Positions 54,472-60,991 are shown, numbered from the stretch's first letter. The stretch: 64,000 bases of DNA from Deltaproteobacteria bacterium (GCA_016186995.1 JACPKQ010000003.1:1-64000), one strand, 5' to 3'. Numbers and translations are program-made. Notes: generated from the letters alone by a model not told the origin.

Positions 54472-54556
54472 GCCGGGGTGGCGGAACTGGCAGACGCGCA
54501 TGACTTAGGATCATGTGGGTTATCCCGTGAAGGTTCAAGTCCTTTCCCCGGCACCA
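54472..54556 (+). tRNA. tRNA-Leu, anticodon TAG, encoded CCA
   Basis: GCCGGGG/CCCCGGC acceptor, CATGA-CTTAGGA-TCATG anticodon arm, GGTTCAAGTCC T-arm, CCA encoded. Confidence 0.94.
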
Positions 54557-54588
54557 CTTCCGCGTTTTAAATTCACCTAGTTCTTCCT
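54531..54588. repeat. Direct repeat, tRNA 3' end plus element left end, copy 1
   Basis: Identical to 54739-54796. Confidence 0.93.
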
Positions 54589-54676
54589 CATATTTAAACA
54601 AACATCCCATACCGCCTTCTCTAGGTTCGATCTTCGCCTTTCAGGCTCGTTCTCACGAAGAGAAGGTCTCCAGCTG

Positions 54677-54764
54677 CTATTCTAAAATTCAGATGCTCTT
54701 ATTCATCGCATCTTCATTAAGAATAGCTACGCTTCCGTAGGTTCAAGTCCTTTCCCCGGCACCA
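54677..54764. repeat. Direct repeat, element right end plus tRNA 3' end, copy 1
   Basis: 86/88 identical to 59470-59557. Confidence 0.93.
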
Positions 54765-54780
54765 CTTCCGCGTTTTAAAT

Positions 54781-55002
54781 TCACCTAGTTCTTCCTGAAG
54801 TTTGAGATTTTTGGGCATCGCTATTATAAAGAGCAATCAAGCGATTTTTTTCTCTGTTAAAACGATCGATTAAATCGTTTTCTGTTATGCCTTCAAATGT
54901 AACTTGGTTTAGATCAATACCTGTATGATATAATTCAATAAGTAGCCCGGAAACAAATGACTGGGTGAAGGATCGAACGCCTTTGAAATCTAAATGTGTC
55001 AC
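54781..55002 (-). CDS. Small DUF4325/STAS-like protein
   Basis: LDFKGVRSFTQSFVSGLL pattern; preceded by an HATPase C-terminal fragment. Confidence 0.5.
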   Translation of the reverse strand: MTHLDFKGVRSFTQSFVSGLLIELYHTGIDLNQVTFEGITENDLIDRFNREKNRLIALYNSDAQKSQTSGRTR

Positions 55003-55205
55003 CTGATTCTATTCTCAAATAACCCGTATTTTTTTTAATAAACTGCCAGACTTCATTTAATCCGATCCCTCTCTCACCTCTGCCTGGTTCAGGATTGAGT
55101 GCGCTTTTCTGAAGCTGGGTTTCGGTCAGAATAATTTTGTCCTCAGCTATCTTTTTTAAGGAAAAGAAAACTTTTATGCGGGGCTCTGCTCTGGCGAGCA
55201 GTGAG
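54935..55205 (-). pseudogene. Truncated HATPase (histidine-kinase-like) remnant
   Basis: Minus frame ARAEPRIKVFFSLKKIAEDKIILTETQLQKSALNPEPGRGERGIGLNEVWQFIKKNTGYLRIESG; N-terminus missing. Confidence 0.55.
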
Positions 55206-55384
55206 GCGGGCAGCCTTCATTTTTACGCTTGGACGGGCGGATTTTTTGGCGGCAGTTTCTATTTTTCTTGCCCTTGCCCCACCACCCCCGTGCGCGGACA
55301 AGATTAAAGAACTCCCTAAAATCAATAAATCAATATGCTAACTATAGTATGTAGCATCAAAGTTAGCAAGTGGATATACTTCAG

Positions 55385-55612
55385 TTATCAATTATGAAAA
55401 GAGAAATCCTTATCAGATTTGGTCAAAAAGTCCGAGAAGAGCGTACAAGGTTAGGTTTGTCTCAAGAAGAACTAGCTGTACGCGCTGGTGTTCACCGGAC
55501 TTATATCGGCATGATTGAGCGCGCAGAAAAAAATATCACACTCGAAAATATCGAAAAAATCGCCAAAGCTCTTGAAATCTCGCTCGATAAGCTAATGAGC
55601 TTGGAAAAGTAA
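55385..55612 (+). CDS. XRE-family regulator, probable R-M controller (C) protein
   Basis: FGQKVREERTRLGLSQEELAVRAGVHRTYIGMIERAEKNITLENIEKIAKAL; immediately upstream of REase. Confidence 0.85.
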   Translation, partial: LSIMKREILIRFGQKVREERTRLGLSQEELAVRAGVHRTYIGMIERAEKNITLENIEKIAKALEISLDKLMSLEK

Positions 55613-55616
55613 ATCT

Positions 55617-56213
55617 ATGGGAACAAATGAATTAAGAAAAAGAAAAATTTGGCAAGATTCCAGCGGAAGAAAAGCAGGAGTCGCAGAAAAAAAATTTTAC
55701 GAAATATTGTCGAAAGAGTTTAAAGGCTCGAACTTTAGAGTGCGCTCAAAGCCAAAAGAATTTAAAAATATCTACTCTAAAATAAAACTCAGTGATGAAG
55801 TTTTAGCAAATATTTATAACCCAGATGAAACATGGATACATGGAGTAATTCCAGATTTCGCTATAGATAATCTCAAAACTAATAAAACACTATACGTAGA
55901 AGTCAAAAGGCAGGATGGGTGGGTAGAAGGAAAACCCCGTAAGGCGGGTAGAGGAAATGCGCATGAGAGATCATGTAAGTTCTTCACGCCAGGATTACTA
56001 AAAATACTGAGAGAACACGGGAAGCTTGGTAACGATGTTTTACCATTTTGGATTGTCTTTCAAGGTGATATTGCACGTGATCCAAAACGTGTAAGAGAAA
56101 TACATTGCTGGTACACTGGGTATTCTGCCAACTTTTTTTTGTGGAGTAATTCAGCAGATCACAAATCTCTAGTTAATCATTTTAATAAGAAACTAAAAAA
56201 TCTGTTAACTTAA
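55617..56213 (+). CDS. Type II restriction endonuclease, MunI-like
   Basis: PDFAI...EVK (PD-ExK spacing), KRQDGWVEGK, AGRGNAHERSCKFFTPGLLK, GDIARDPKRVREI resemble remembered MunI sequence. Confidence 0.88.
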   Translation: MGTNELRKRKIWQDSSGRKAGVAEKKFYEILSKEFKGSNFRVRSKPKEFKNIYSKIKLSDEVLANIYNPDETWIHGVIPDFAIDNLKTNKTLYVEVKRQDGWVEGKPRKAGRGNAHERSCKFFTPGLLKILREHGKLGNDVLPFWIVFQGDIARDPKRVREIHCWYTGYSANFFLWSNSADHKSLVNHFNKKLKNLLT

Positions 56214-56945
56214 GAAGCATTCATTACTTTTCTTAAGCATATCTAATCCCCACGCTGACCAACCCTTGATCTTTCTTCTTGCGAATAATTCAATGCGTTC
56301 CTGAGTTGGAAACATTTTTTCTATTGCTTGAATTACTTCTATTGGCTTCTCACTATGTTTTTTTCTTGGGCTTCGCACTAATTGTTGTATATTTCTTGCG
56401 CCTCTTGGTTTTGGTATTCTGCCTCGCTTGAACACCAAACATAACTCACAATTTGAAAGAGTATATTGCCCGGGATTATGGTTCATTTTGTCCCAAACAA
56501 ATGCGACTGTTTTGTATTCAAATCCCCATGCTTCGCCCAACTCTATGGCTTGGGCTAAATGCGGATTTGATGTCCACATGAACAAAAGGCAATCATCTTT
56601 TGCAATTTCGTGAACGGGAATCTTCATCAATTCACTAGTTTTTAATGTTGGGTACTTAAACGTAGCCGAACTTATGAATATTTTTCTTGAGAAATCAATA
56701 CTCTCTTTACTTTTGCTGCTTTTATCGAATTGCAATTTCCCATTATAGTACCAAGGTGGATCAGCATAAATTACATTAAATTTTTTATTTGGTAATTTAG
56801 GATAAAGACTCGACAATGTATTTTGCTTTGTTCGCTTCGTGGCGTCCTCATTATAAATCGAATACCCAGTTCGTTTATTCGATAAACCGACTTCAGTTTG
56901 TGGTTGAGATTTAGCCATAGTCATTGATAACTTTGGTATACGCAA
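56205..56945 (-). CDS. MT-A70-family adenine-N6 DNA methyltransferase
   Basis: YADPPWYYNG catalytic motif; MT-A70 layout; convergent with REase (ends overlap). Confidence 0.88.
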   Translation of the reverse strand: MRIPKLSMTMAKSQPQTEVGLSNKRTGYSIYNEDATKRTKQNTLSSLYPKLPNKKFNVIYADPPWYYNGKLQFDKSSKSKESIDFSRKIFISSATFKYPTLKTSELMKIPVHEIAKDDCLLFMWTSNPHLAQAIELGEAWGFEYKTVAFVWDKMNHNPGQYTLSNCELCLVFKRGRIPKPRGARNIQQLVRSPRKKHSEKPIEVIQAIEKMFPTQERIELFARRKIKGWSAWGLDMLKKSNECFLS

Positions 56946-57055
56946 AGTTTTTTATTCAAGCAAGCTAAATTTTCTCAATACGACGCAACTTAAAATGTGG
57001 TTTGTGTTCACATTTCGATCAAGAAAAACTCCAAAATTCCGAAAAGAAGAGAAGG

Positions 57056-58564
57056 ATGAAAAACCTCACAAAAACCAAATATGTGAAAGGTGTGCGGTGC
57101 TTAAAGGCACTGTATTTGAACGTTTATCAGCCTGAGCTTGGAAAAGAGCCTGATGAATCTCAAAAAATGATTATGGCGCAAGGACAAGCGGTGGGAGAGT
57201 TTGCAAAAAAAGAATTTAAAGGTGGGGTTGATATTTCAAAGTCGGATGGAAAGTTTGATGAACAGGTTCGCTTGACGAAAGAGGCTTTGAAAAAAGATGT
57301 ACCCGCTATTTTTGAAGCTACTTTTTTGCATGAGGGTGTGCTTTGTAAAGTGGATATTTTGGAAAGAACAAAAAAGGGCTGGAATTTAATTGAGGTGAAA
57401 TCTTCGACCAAAGTTACTGAAGAGCATATTCATGATGTAGCCGTTCAGTATGCTGTTTTAAAAGGGGCTGGGATTCAGGTTGAGCGCGCATATTTGATGC
57501 TTGTCAATACAGCGTGTATTTATCCTGATTTATCCAATTTTTTTAAAAAAGAAGATGTCACAAAAGAAGTTGAAATGAAACTTTCCGAAGTTAAAGGGAA
57601 TCTCAAAAAACAATTTGATGTTTTAAAATCTAAGCGTGAGCCCAAAATTGATATTGGGGAGTATTGCTTAAAATTTCCTGGGAATAAAAAGCCACGCGCG
57701 TGCGAATTTAAAGAACATTGTTGGAAGCATATCAAAGAAAATTCTGTGTTTGAACTTTATCGTCTTAAAAAAGAAAAACAGTTTGATTTGTACACTTCTG
57801 GCGTGCTTCAGATTAAGGCTTTACCCAAGGGGTATAAGTTAAATGCCATGCAGGAAAGACAAGTTGAGGCTGTTTTCTCCAAAGCGCCTTATATGGATAA
57901 AGCTGGAATCGGGGATTTTCTAAGTCAAATTGAATATCCCGTGCATTATTTAGATTTTGAAACTGCAAATCCAGCCATTCCCAGGTTTAAGGGCATACAC
58001 CCATACGAGCATATCCCTTTTCAGTTTAGTTGTTTTGTGCGTGAGGAAAATGGAAATCTTTTATATCGGGAATTTCTACAACTTGGAACAAACGACCCCC
58101 GTGAGGCACTTTTGAAAGCACTTTTAGAGGGTATTCAAAATCGAGGATCAATCTTTGTTTATAATGCCGTGTTTGAAAAAAGAATTTTAAAAAGTTTGGC
58201 AAAATCGTTTCCAAAGTATGAAAAAAAGATAAATGGGATTATTGAACGTATTGTAGACATGATGGATATTTTTTTGAACTATTATTATCATCCAGATTTT
58301 CATGGCTCCCTAAGCTTAAAAAAAATCGTGCCTGTTCTTGCCCCCTCTCTTTCATACGAAGGCATGGAAATTGCTGAAGGAGGATCAGCCAGCGCTGCTT
58401 ATATGCGAACGCTCACAGAAGACCTCTCCGAAATCGAAATCAGCGCGATTGAAAAGAATTTACGTGAATATTGTAAGAAAGACACGCAAGTCATGGTAGA
58501 AATCCACGACTTTTTTTTAAATCTTTTGTCAGATAAAAAGCAGAAAAAACAATGTCTAAAATAA
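57056..58564 (+). CDS. DUF2779-type putative nuclease (PD-(D/E)XK plus DnaQ-like exonuclease)
   Basis: KVDILERTKKGWNLIEVKSSTKV and VHYLDFETANPAIP...YNAVFEKRIL...YCKKDTQVMVEI; start after GAGAAGG. Confidence 0.8.
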   Translation: MKNLTKTKYVKGVRCLKALYLNVYQPELGKEPDESQKMIMAQGQAVGEFAKKEFKGGVDISKSDGKFDEQVRLTKEALKKDVPAIFEATFLHEGVLCKVDILERTKKGWNLIEVKSSTKVTEEHIHDVAVQYAVLKGAGIQVERAYLMLVNTACIYPDLSNFFKKEDVTKEVEMKLSEVKGNLKKQFDVLKSKREPKIDIGEYCLKFPGNKKPRACEFKEHCWKHIKENSVFELYRLKKEKQFDLYTSGVLQIKALPKGYKLNAMQERQVEAVFSKAPYMDKAGIGDFLSQIEYPVHYLDFETANPAIPRFKGIHPYEHIPFQFSCFVREENGNLLYREFLQLGTNDPREALLKALLEGIQNRGSIFVYNAVFEKRILKSLAKSFPKYEKKINGIIERIVDMMDIFLNYYYHPDFHGSLSLKKIVPVLAPSLSYEGMEIAEGGSASAAYMRTLTEDLSEIEISAIEKNLREYCKKDTQVMVEIHDFFLNLLSDKKQKKQCLK

Positions 58565-59211
58565 AAGGAATCCTCTTTGATCTCGACAATACGCTCATTG
58601 ATTTTATGAAAATGAAGCGGATGGCCTGTTCTGAAGCTGCTTCTGCCATGATTGGGGCTGGGCTAAAGATGGAGTTTGAGACGCTGGAAAAAGAACTCTT
58701 TGGTTTTTATCTAAATTACGGCATCGAAGGAGATTACCCTTTCACAGATTTTTTAAAGAAACATAATGCCTACACAGATGCAATACTTGCTTCGGCCATC
58801 AATGCATATCACCGTGTGAAAAGTGCGTTTTTGGAGCCTTACCCTGGTGTGATTCCAATGTTTGTAAAACTGATTAAACAAGGCATTAAGCTTGGCATTG
58901 TAACCGATGCGCCGTCTTTAAAAGCGCATCAACGCATTGATGCCATGAAACTGCATGGATTTTTTGATGTCGTTGTCACAGAAGCTAAAAAGCCAGATTC
59001 ACAAGGTTTTTTGAAGGCAGTTGAAAAATTTGGATTAAAACCCCAGGAAGTCATGATGGTGGGCGACTGGCCAGAAAAGGATATGGTGGGTGCAAAAAAA
59101 GCAGGTTTAATTGCATGCTTTGCAAAATATGGCCACTCTGTGGGTGTTGAAACAGCTACAGAACCAGATCATACGATCCATAAGATCGAAGAGCTATTAG
59201 AAATTTTATAA
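58552..59211 (+). CDS. HAD-superfamily hydrolase
   Basis: GILFDLDNTLIDF, GIVTDAPS, MMVGDWPEKDMVGAKKAG. Confidence 0.92.
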   Translation: MSKIKGILFDLDNTLIDFMKMKRMACSEAASAMIGAGLKMEFETLEKELFGFYLNYGIEGDYPFTDFLKKHNAYTDAILASAINAYHRVKSAFLEPYPGVIPMFVKLIKQGIKLGIVTDAPSLKAHQRIDAMKLHGFFDVVVTEAKKPDSQGFLKAVEKFGLKPQEVMMVGDWPEKDMVGAKKAGLIACFAKYGHSVGVETATEPDHTIHKIEELLEIL

Positions 59212-59250
59212 GTCTTGTCTTCGTTTCTGAGAAGATGAAAGATTTTATTT

Positions 59251-59403
59251 ATGATCGTGAAACGCGGAAATAAATACGTTTTGTATTCCAGAAGCAAAAG
59301 GAAGGGCAAGCGGCGACGCTTAGGTGTTTTTAAAACCAGAGAAGCTGCTTTAAAACGAGAGCGACAAATTCAATATTTTAAGCATTTGAAAAAGAACAAT
59401 TAA
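59251..59403 (+). CDS. 50-aa very basic small protein
   Basis: MIVKRGNKYVLYSRSKRKGKRRRLGVFKTREAALKRERQIQYFKHLKKNN*; resembles arm/AP2-type DNA-binding pattern; absent from ORF track. Confidence 0.6.
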   Translation: MIVKRGNKYVLYSRSKRKGKRRRLGVFKTREAALKRERQIQYFKHLKKNN

Positions 59404-59469
59404 ATTTTATTTATTCTTTTTTGAGCGGTATAATTCTGTCATGCGTTTGTGGCACTCGTAATCGCCACA

Positions 59470-59557
59470 CTATTCTAAAATTCAGATGCTCTTATTCATC
59501 GCATTTTCATTAAGAATAGCTACGCTTCCGTAGGTTCAAGTCCTTTCCCCGGCATCA
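59470..59557. repeat. Direct repeat, element right end plus tRNA 3' end, copy 2
   Basis: 86/88 identical to 54677-54764. Confidence 0.93.
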
Positions 59558-59560
59558 TTT

Positions 59561-60991
59561 TTATGGTTTCCAGATGTTGTCTTCATCCCCATTGACACCC
59601 ATAAGGTAGATAAGATCTTCCTCTTCTTCAAAGTTAGATTGAGTGAGGTTTTGGAGTATTTTTTGGTAAGAACGTGTTTTTCCTTCTAAGAAATAATCGA
59701 GAAAAGCAAAAGTATTAGGAACTGAAGTAGTGCTATATGTTGGAAGCCCTGATGTAATAATTTCTAAATTGTGAGTTCCCCCTTTTTTTGTAAAAAATTG
59801 TCCTTTGAAATAAGGATAGGTGCTACATCCGTTAAAAAAGTAAATTTGGTATTTGTCTTTATTAAATTGAATATCTTGAAAATCACGAGAGGTGAGATCA
59901 AGGTTACCCCCTAATCCTGAATGGCCATCATAAAGAATAATATCTGCATTTTCAAAAGCAGGTTTGACGTAATAGTGAAAAGTATAATCTTTAGATTCAA
60001 TAGAGGTATCTGTAAGAAGAATTTGTATTCTTATGTTTAAAGGTGTTTTAAGTTTGGAAGTGCTAGTTTTTTCTAACTGAGTTAAAAAATTAAGCCCTTG
60101 AGCAAAACTATTTTTTCCATCTCGGTTGCCATCTCTGTAAACGCGAAATAATTCTTTTTCAACAATTTTTTTAAACCCTCTTGATTGAAGTTCCTTAATG
60201 ATTGTTCGATAGGCTTTATAAGCATCATCTTTTTTTCTACGTTTGACCCTTTTTGAATTTTCAAAATTGTGAACATCCACATCATCCATGTATCCAAAGA
60301 AAAGTGCTATATCGAGTGTTTCCCCGTTTCCATTATCACTATAAAGTTTGTCATATTCTGGGTAAGAAAGTTTTGTGCTTTTTTTTCTCTTAAGCCTTCC
60401 TTGTGTGCGAACAACATTGATGTTGTCTTTTTTAAGCCGACATTGTGGTAAATCTGGGTCCCAAAAATACCAGAAATCTTCTTTTGAATTATACTCTCTA
60501 TCCGTGCAAGGATTGAACTTTTTAGAAAAACTGAGGTCATAAATTTTATCAGGTTCAAGGGGAAGTTTAATAGGAACTTTTCTTATAGCTCTCTTATAAC
60601 TTTTGCCTCCAAAAGCTTCTTTGTCGAAAACAACAGTTCCTTCAAAATCATAGTGAATTTTTTTACGTTGTGGATCACTCGTGTTTTCTATTTTTTTAAA
60701 AGTGACTTTATAGTGATGATTTTCTCCTAAAACACCCTTATAACCAAATTCTTTGTAAAATGATTCAGATTGAAACGCACCTACAAGGTAATCGAGTTGT
60801 TGTTCAATAATGGGAAGTGTTTCATGTCGATCGCCTTCGTTAAGTTTTAAAAAATTAATATCGCTTGCAAGCGCTTCAAGAACTGTACTAAAAGTAAGAG
60901 TTGCCTCTGTTGATCGCAATCCATAATAACTATGTGACAAAAAGGGAATCAAGCAAAGAATGAAGATACCTATGCGAAACATATACTTCAT
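59561..60991 (-). CDS. Secreted protein with caspase/gingipain-like His/Cys motifs
   Basis: Signal peptide; ADIILYDGHSGLGG and YQIYFFNGCSTYPYFKG resemble a clan CD dyad. Confidence 0.55.
   Translation of the reverse strand: MKYMFRIGIFILCLIPFLSHSYYGLRSTEATLTFSTVLEALASDINFLKLNEGDRHETLPIIEQQLDYLVGAFQSESFYKEFGYKGVLGENHHYKVTFKKIENTSDPQRKKIHYDFEGTVVFDKEAFGGKSYKRAIRKVPIKLPLEPDKIYDLSFSKKFNPCTDREYNSKEDFWYFWDPDLPQCRLKKDNINVVRTQGRLKRKKSTKLSYPEYDKLYSDNGNGETLDIALFFGYMDDVDVHNFENSKRVKRRKKDDAYKAYRTIIKELQSRGFKKIVEKELFRVYRDGNRDGKNSFAQGLNFLTQLEKTSTSKLKTPLNIRIQILLTDTSIESKDYTFHYYVKPAFENADIILYDGHSGLGGNLDLTSRDFQDIQFNKDKYQIYFFNGCSTYPYFKGQFFTKKGGTHNLEIITSGLPTYSTTSVPNTFAFLDYFLEGKTRSYQKILQNLTQSNFEEEEDLIYLMGVNGDEDNIWKP

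Follow-up and report, generated by a model that had tools for sequence, protein, structure and literature searches.

The window analysed here is a stretch of 64,000 nucleotides from a Deltaproteobacteria bacterium (GCA_016186995.1, JACPKQ010000003.1:1-64000) in which an intact tRNA-Leu(TAG) gene is followed by two tandem units, each bounded by copies of the 3' end of the tRNA. The explanation that we favour, with a probability of roughly two in three, is that unit 1 is a repeat similar to the RtT repeats of enteric tRNA loci and that unit 2 is a local tandem copy of it, the middle of which has been replaced by 4.7 kb of restriction-modification cargo. An earlier note on this DNA, made from the sequence alone, had described the two units as elements integrated by one integrase, which either acted in trans or had been lost.

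Tandem units at tRNA-Leu(TAG)

The tRNA-Leu(TAG) gene was located by ARAGORN at 54472–54556 (plus strand, as are the other features of the two units given in this section). Its last 26 nucleotides are present at 54531, 54739 and 59532, that is, within the tRNA itself (54531–54556), as a second copy (54739–54764) and as a third copy in which CCA has become TCA (59532–59557). The starts of the two units (54531–54588 and 54739–54796) are identical over 58/58 bp, and their ends (54677–54764 and 59470–59557) agree over 86/88 bp with mismatches at 54712 and 54762. The boundaries given in the earlier note were exact to the base, but the right ends, called identical over 88 bp, differ at these two positions. 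Without its tRNA copy, unit 1 spans 54557–54738, which by alignment divides into a left flank (54557–54607) and the structured core (54608–54738) of a repeat that we call family 1. Read from 5' to 3', a unit consists of a left flank, a hairpin H1 (54614–54667 in unit 1), a long hairpin H2 with internal loops (54675–54729), a right-end motif (54730–54738, CGCTTCCGT here) and the tRNA copy; both hairpins were delineated by covariation. Unit 2 retains the left 32 bp of the unit (54765–54796, identical to unit 1) and the right 62 bp (59470–59531), which comprise nearly all of H2 plus the right-end motif and show one mismatch to unit 1. Everything in between, including H1, is replaced by 4,673 bp. 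A covariance model of family 1 (R1, see below) scores 162.5 bits at 54608–54750 in unit 1 and 58.8 bits at the right end of unit 2. As the earlier note had stated, no recombinase gene was found in unit 1 or unit 2.

A dispersed structured repeat at the edges of tRNA genes

Searches covered 146 genomes: that of the window (1.68 Mb in 30 contigs, 93% complete; the window lies on a contig of 78 kb), one genome of a sister genus, which is the only other genome of the family, and 144 further relatives. The model R1 was built from six copies. At least nine copies of family 1, structured and non-coding, are present in the genome of the window, unit 1 among them. Related units elsewhere in this genome were detected with E-values down to 1e-28 by blastn and to 8e-45 by the covariance model (the E-values of home-made models are rough), and because they lie at other loci of the same genome, chance is ruled out as the source of the repeats. 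Copies are located directly 3' of tRNA-Sec (named by Rfam), tRNA-Met, tRNA-Ser(GCT) and tRNA-Arg(ACG), and on the 5' side of tRNA-Phe; one more stands at the start of a contig (C23), and the covariance model adds copies 5' of tRNA-Asp and tRNA-Ala(CGC). Both the 5' and the 3' edges of tRNA genes are occupied, and nearly all copies are bounded by a copy of the end of their own host tRNA. The same model yielded 11 copies in the sister genus, six of them at tRNAs (Leu(TAG), Phe, Ala, Glu, Thr, and Gly, the last named by its sequence) and five away from tRNAs, inside a 40-bp repetitive extragenic palindrome (REP) family of that genome. Among the tRNAs compared, tRNA-Leu(TAG) is the only one with family 1 at the same edge in both genera; the sister-genus copies sit at mostly different tRNAs, which supports the earlier proposal that the units arose by insertion at tRNA genes. 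No family-1 copy was found in the 144 further relatives with the covariance model, run under stricter filters that may lose weak matches. No unit was found on phages or plasmids, nor in viral contigs by one exact pattern.

The structure of the core is supported by compensatory changes. In the six-copy alignment, 15/33 pairs show two-sided changes with the pairing kept; in an alignment of 19 copies, which was fitted to the model and therefore favours a covariation signal, this holds for 25/33 pairs (125 cells vs 39 in shuffles). The signal from the 19 copies was lost when the partners were slid by 1–3 columns.

At the resolved junctions of single units, the far tRNA copy matches the host's own tRNA over 11–29 bp; the match in the window extends to 58 bp, since the left end of unit 2 comes next. 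The right-end motif precedes the tRNA copy at every resolved family-1 junction, with CGGCTCCGT, CGGCTCCGC and similar sequences in the other copies. The tRNA-Asp junction was not resolved by script, and by eye its far copy is shorter and imperfect. The core of the unit at tRNA-Asp is 96% identical to that of the unit at tRNA-Ala, and each unit is flanked by the sequence of its own host; duplication of the target therefore fits better than a tRNA end carried by the element. In fact, an attachment site borne by the element does not predict own-host copies, unless these were reset by gene conversion. Overall, the family-1 cores group by genome and not by tRNA while the tRNA copies follow the host, which suggests that cores move between tRNAs and acquire the tRNA copy at the site. 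The unit of the window is 78% identical to the tRNA-Sec unit, the highest value between unit 1 and any other unit of this genome, and 52% identical to the tRNA-Leu(TAG) unit of the sister genus. The ends of units 1 and 2 are 98–100% alike. Because unit 1 resembles unit 2 far more closely than it resembles any other unit, a local tandem duplication is the simplest history.

Proposed origin of units 1 and 2

In the scheme that we propose, a structured non-coding repeat of about 170–210 bp would insert at the edge of a tRNA gene and leave the terminal 11–29 bp of the host tRNA copied on its far side; by virtue of this copy the tRNA would stay intact. At tRNA-Leu(TAG), one unit would have been inserted first; a tandem duplication by way of the repeated 3' end of the tRNA would have followed, of the kind seen in RtT arrays. 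The middle (H1) of one of the two would subsequently have given way to the cargo, only the 32 bp on the left and the 62 bp on the right being kept. The units would be co-transcribed with the tRNA. If tRNA copies 2 and 3 recombined, the cargo would be lost as a circle of 4,793 bp. On our best reading, no integrase is required for unit 2.

Several points weigh against this scheme. The left ends of the copies differ in length, and the duplicated target does not always adjoin the conserved core: at tRNA-Asp and tRNA-Ala some tens of non-conserved bases lie between the tRNA edge and the core, so that a simple target-site duplication is unproven. That the units insert is concluded from the distribution of the copies. 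Similarly, the state of unit 2 before the cargo is a reconstruction. Had a cargo element with ready-made ends been received from a close relative through homologous recombination, the outcome would be almost indistinguishable, and the data do not separate such import of cargo from another strain, by way of the shared ends, from local gain.

Other tRNA-edge repeats and RtT

RtT repeats have for a long time stood as a curiosity of E. coli, and we know of no agreed function or origin for them. The tRNA-Tyr locus of E. coli K-12 (tyrT/tyrV) contains three 178-bp tandem repeats, each of which has a T-arm complement, GGGGAAGGAT, together with a copy of the 3' end of the tRNA; Rfam identifies these repeats as RtT (RF00391). 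In E. coli (proK) and Salmonella, RtT is also found downstream of tRNA-Pro, where the segment is GAGGAT and matches that tRNA. It occupies 1 to 14 places per E. coli genome (median 3).

About a dozen or more tRNA genes in the genome of the window have a terminal copy nearby, at either end, and besides family 1 the genome contains two more structured families. Family 2 gave 46 matches in 14/146 genomes of the phylum, mostly downstream of tRNAs and including bacterial families far from this one. It has the same anatomy as family 1, but a segment inside the unit is complementary to the T-arm of the very tRNA that hosts it. The longest complementary run averages 8.2 nt for the own host vs 4.9 nt for other hosts, a value reached in 0/5000 permutations, and in the predicted fold this segment pairs with the tRNA copy. 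An internal guide of this kind was rejected for family 1, where the match to the own host's T-arm was no better than permuted (92% of permutations were as high). tRNA-Met and tRNA-Ser(GCT) host family 1 in one of the two genera and family 2 in the other one. In a tRNA cluster of the sister genus (Gly-Tyr-Thr-Trp; L118, C115), 3/4 tRNAs have a family-2 unit of their own after them. Family 3 is a separate covarying repeat found in the genome of the window only, with eight copies, three of which are away from tRNAs; it is found on the 5' side of tRNA-Arg(TCT), Val(CAC), Gln, His and Ala(CGC). Two tRNA-Ala(CGC) genes of this genome lie about 1.3 kb apart (C24:7097–8461), and both have repeats on the 5' side.

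When the family-2 model (R2) is run on the tyrT locus, its three best matches fall on the three RtT repeats, in register, and the RtT of proK is the best match of its locus (E 0.12). These matches suggest homology between family 2 and enteric RtT rather than establish it, because those at tyrT reach E-values of only 0.06–0.14. For family 1 the comparison was negative in both directions: the R1 model placed nothing in register on the RtT loci, and RF00391 matched no family-1 unit at E up to 5. RF00391 was matched in 0/146 genomes, that of the window included. Rfam as a whole gave no credible match to the units, since the matches to plastid families overlap tRNAs and a match to signal recognition particle RNA lies outside the family-2 unit.

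Alternative explanations

In principle, units 1 and 2 could be two integrative elements of one tyrosine recombinase, lost or acting in trans, with unit 1 emptied, as in cis-mobilizable elements (CIMEs) or tycheposons. Repeats of tRNA 3' ends, tandem arrays and recombinase-free cargo are indeed known for cis-mobilizable elements and for Dehalococcoides ssrA (PMC3146451), and the genome of the window is only 93% complete. However, near-identical cores bearing the tRNA end of their own host at different tRNAs are hard to reconcile with an attachment site carried by the element, the core covaries like an RNA or a hairpin and unlike arm-type binding sites, and the similarity of units 1 and 2 relative to all other units argues for a local duplication. 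The only matches to PF00589 in the genome are the housekeeping XerC and XerD, and an integrase was rejected as mobilizer, in a search that did not extend to serine recombinases, Cas1 or DDE transposases. Neither the genome nor its relatives yielded an integrase-bearing element with matching ends, serine recombinases again not being covered, and unit 2 is the only cargo-bearing family-1 unit found in the 146 genomes. The shared ends on which the earlier note had built its case are real, but they are the local version of a dispersed structured repeat and not peculiar to this locus. The elements with the same ends that do occur elsewhere are short and gene-less, an outcome halfway between the integrated elements that the note had pictured and the purely local duplication that it had set against it. 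Overall, we consider a common integrase unlikely. Reverse transcriptase and Y1 transposase were also dropped as mobilizers, as neither has a match in the genome of the window and both were detected only in the sister genome. The idea of an integron attC site was set aside once the own-host tRNA copies had been seen. As a separate observation, a frameshift or stop splits the xerC gene that lies upstream of hslV-hslU (C1:10001–10427); this may be an assembly error or real decay.

The strong covariation would also suit functional RNA genes or regulators, such as sponge RNAs or maturation controls, that are co-transcribed with the tRNAs and spread by gene conversion, the cargo being incidental. 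In E. coli, RtT itself is transcribed from the tyrT operon, and a possible role in the stringent response has been proposed for it (PMC2965389). A conserved function would, however, predict a stable association with given tRNAs, whereas the occurrence of the units is patchy even between sister genera, different families are found at the same tRNA, and the five sister-genus copies within REPs lie away from tRNAs. This makes such a reading distinctly unlikely. An assembly artefact, in which collapsed or duplicated contigs gave rise to the tandem ends, or mere chance, deserves a thought in an assembly of 30 contigs with one unit at a contig start (C23), but it can be given next to no weight: units 1 and 2 differ at two bases and enclose 4.7 kb of unique sequence inside a 78-kb contig, and other units are present at many independent loci in two genomes.

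Cargo of unit 2 and flanking genes

The DNA that replaces the middle of unit 2 (54797–59469) has a GC content of 0.375, vs 0.359 for the window. The cargo is a MunI-type type II restriction-modification trio, with endonuclease, methyltransferase and controller together, plus other genes, and its description as defence-like in the earlier note was apt. The trio consists of a helix-turn-helix controller (55370–55612, plus strand; HTH_3; PADLOC Control_protein, 9e-24), the MunI-type endonuclease (55617–56213, plus; PF11407, 7e-72; PADLOC REase_II, 1e-66) and an MT-A70 DNA adenine methyltransferase (56205–56945, minus; PF05063, 2e-22; PADLOC MTase_II, 2e-63). It is followed by a putative nuclease of the DUF2779 or RecB-Cas4-like type (57002–58564, plus; PF11074, 1e-42; TIGR03491, 3e-10, below cut-off) and a HAD-family hydrolase (58552–59211, plus; PF13419; TIGR02253, 1e-43, below cut-off). 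A truncated and degenerate DUF4325/STAS-like remnant (54781–55002, minus; PF14213, weak and below cut-off) extends into the left end of the unit. The trio recurs, with its gene order unchanged, on a viral contig (L188), which shows that the restriction-modification module occurs on other mobile DNA too; no MunI was found on plasmids. The predicted specificity of the system is CAATTG. This hexamer, the expected MunI site, occurs 18 times in 148 kb vs 35.9 expected, a weak indication since TAATTA is also low (25 vs 45).

Upstream of tRNA-Leu(TAG), RND/TolC genes are conserved in the sister genus (61% and 46% identity). On the 3' side, the sister genus has an AbiEi/AbiEii pair (C70, L083:8045–9390) just after its tRNA-Leu(TAG) unit, with no further tRNA copy enclosing the pair. 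Because this pair stands where the window has its cargo, the 3' side of the gene is variable. Beyond the third tRNA copy, the window encodes (59561–60991, minus strand) a secreted-looking protein of 476 amino acids with DGHSG and FNGCS motifs, caspase/gingipain-like by eye, which has no NCBIfam match.

Implications and comparison with known systems

A wider proposal, unlikely as it stands, treats the repeats at tRNA edges as small mobile elements that are directed into tRNA genes by their own folded RNA, or by their single-stranded DNA, the T-arm complement of family 2 and RtT being the targeting guide. If so, mobile elements that have no genes and are guided by nucleic acid would form a widespread class, of which RtT was the first member to be seen, and unit 2 would be an example of such an element with defence cargo. 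Repeats of RtT design, with a host-matched T-arm complement, occur at many tRNA isotypes in distant bacteria, and their origin can be tested on many insertions instead of one locus. The window presents such a repeat as the container of a restriction-modification module, which suggests a recombinase-free route to the defence hot spots at tRNA 3' ends; the AbiE pair beside the sister-genus unit at the same tRNA may be named alongside this idea.

The cargo resembles other MunI type II systems in its endonuclease family, its controller, the divergent methyltransferase and the gene order seen on the viral contig; it differs in its location inside a tRNA-linked repeat, and its specificity is a prediction. 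As in tRNA-integrated elements and CIMEs, att-like direct repeats derived from the tRNA 3' end are present at both borders, and as in tandem islands at tRNA or tmRNA genes, tandem units are bounded by copies of the 3' end of the RNA gene, some without integration genes. At ssrA of Dehalococcoides, 15 islands are free of an integration module (PMC3146451), but integrase-bearing islands use the same site there; none were found here, where the core is a dispersed structured repeat. Additive flexible genomic islands and tycheposons at tRNAs (PMC10872708) are a further comparison: tycheposons are 4–200 kb in size and carry a tyrosine recombinase, whereas the small repeats described here are gene-less and have a covarying structure.

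With REPs, bacterial interspersed mosaic elements (BIMEs) and the associated RAYT transposases, the units share the character of short, dispersed, structured repeats, and some BIMEs are similar to RtT (PMC2965389). Five family-1 cores of the sister genus sit inside REPs, and REP copies of that genus lie on both sides of a Y1 transposase gene (C117:1293–2044, between two inverted copies of AACCTGCCTGACGGTTTTC; about 20 REP copies in the genome). In contrast, the genome of the window has no Y1_Tnp match and none of these REPs, and copies of tRNA ends are not a REP feature.

The closest likeness in anatomy is to RtT. Family 1, too, is a structured non-coding repeat at the edge of a tRNA gene that ends with a copy of the end of its host tRNA, stands in tandem in the window and occurs at several tRNAs; family 2 would in addition share with RtT the closing stem between the internal T-arm complement and the tRNA copy. 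Family 1 differs in having neither a host-matched internal complement nor a credible sequence match, and both ends of tRNA genes are used in this genome. We know of no cargo-bearing RtT. By its anatomy, family 1 is best described as RtT-like; it is a separate sequence family, and we do not file it as RtT.

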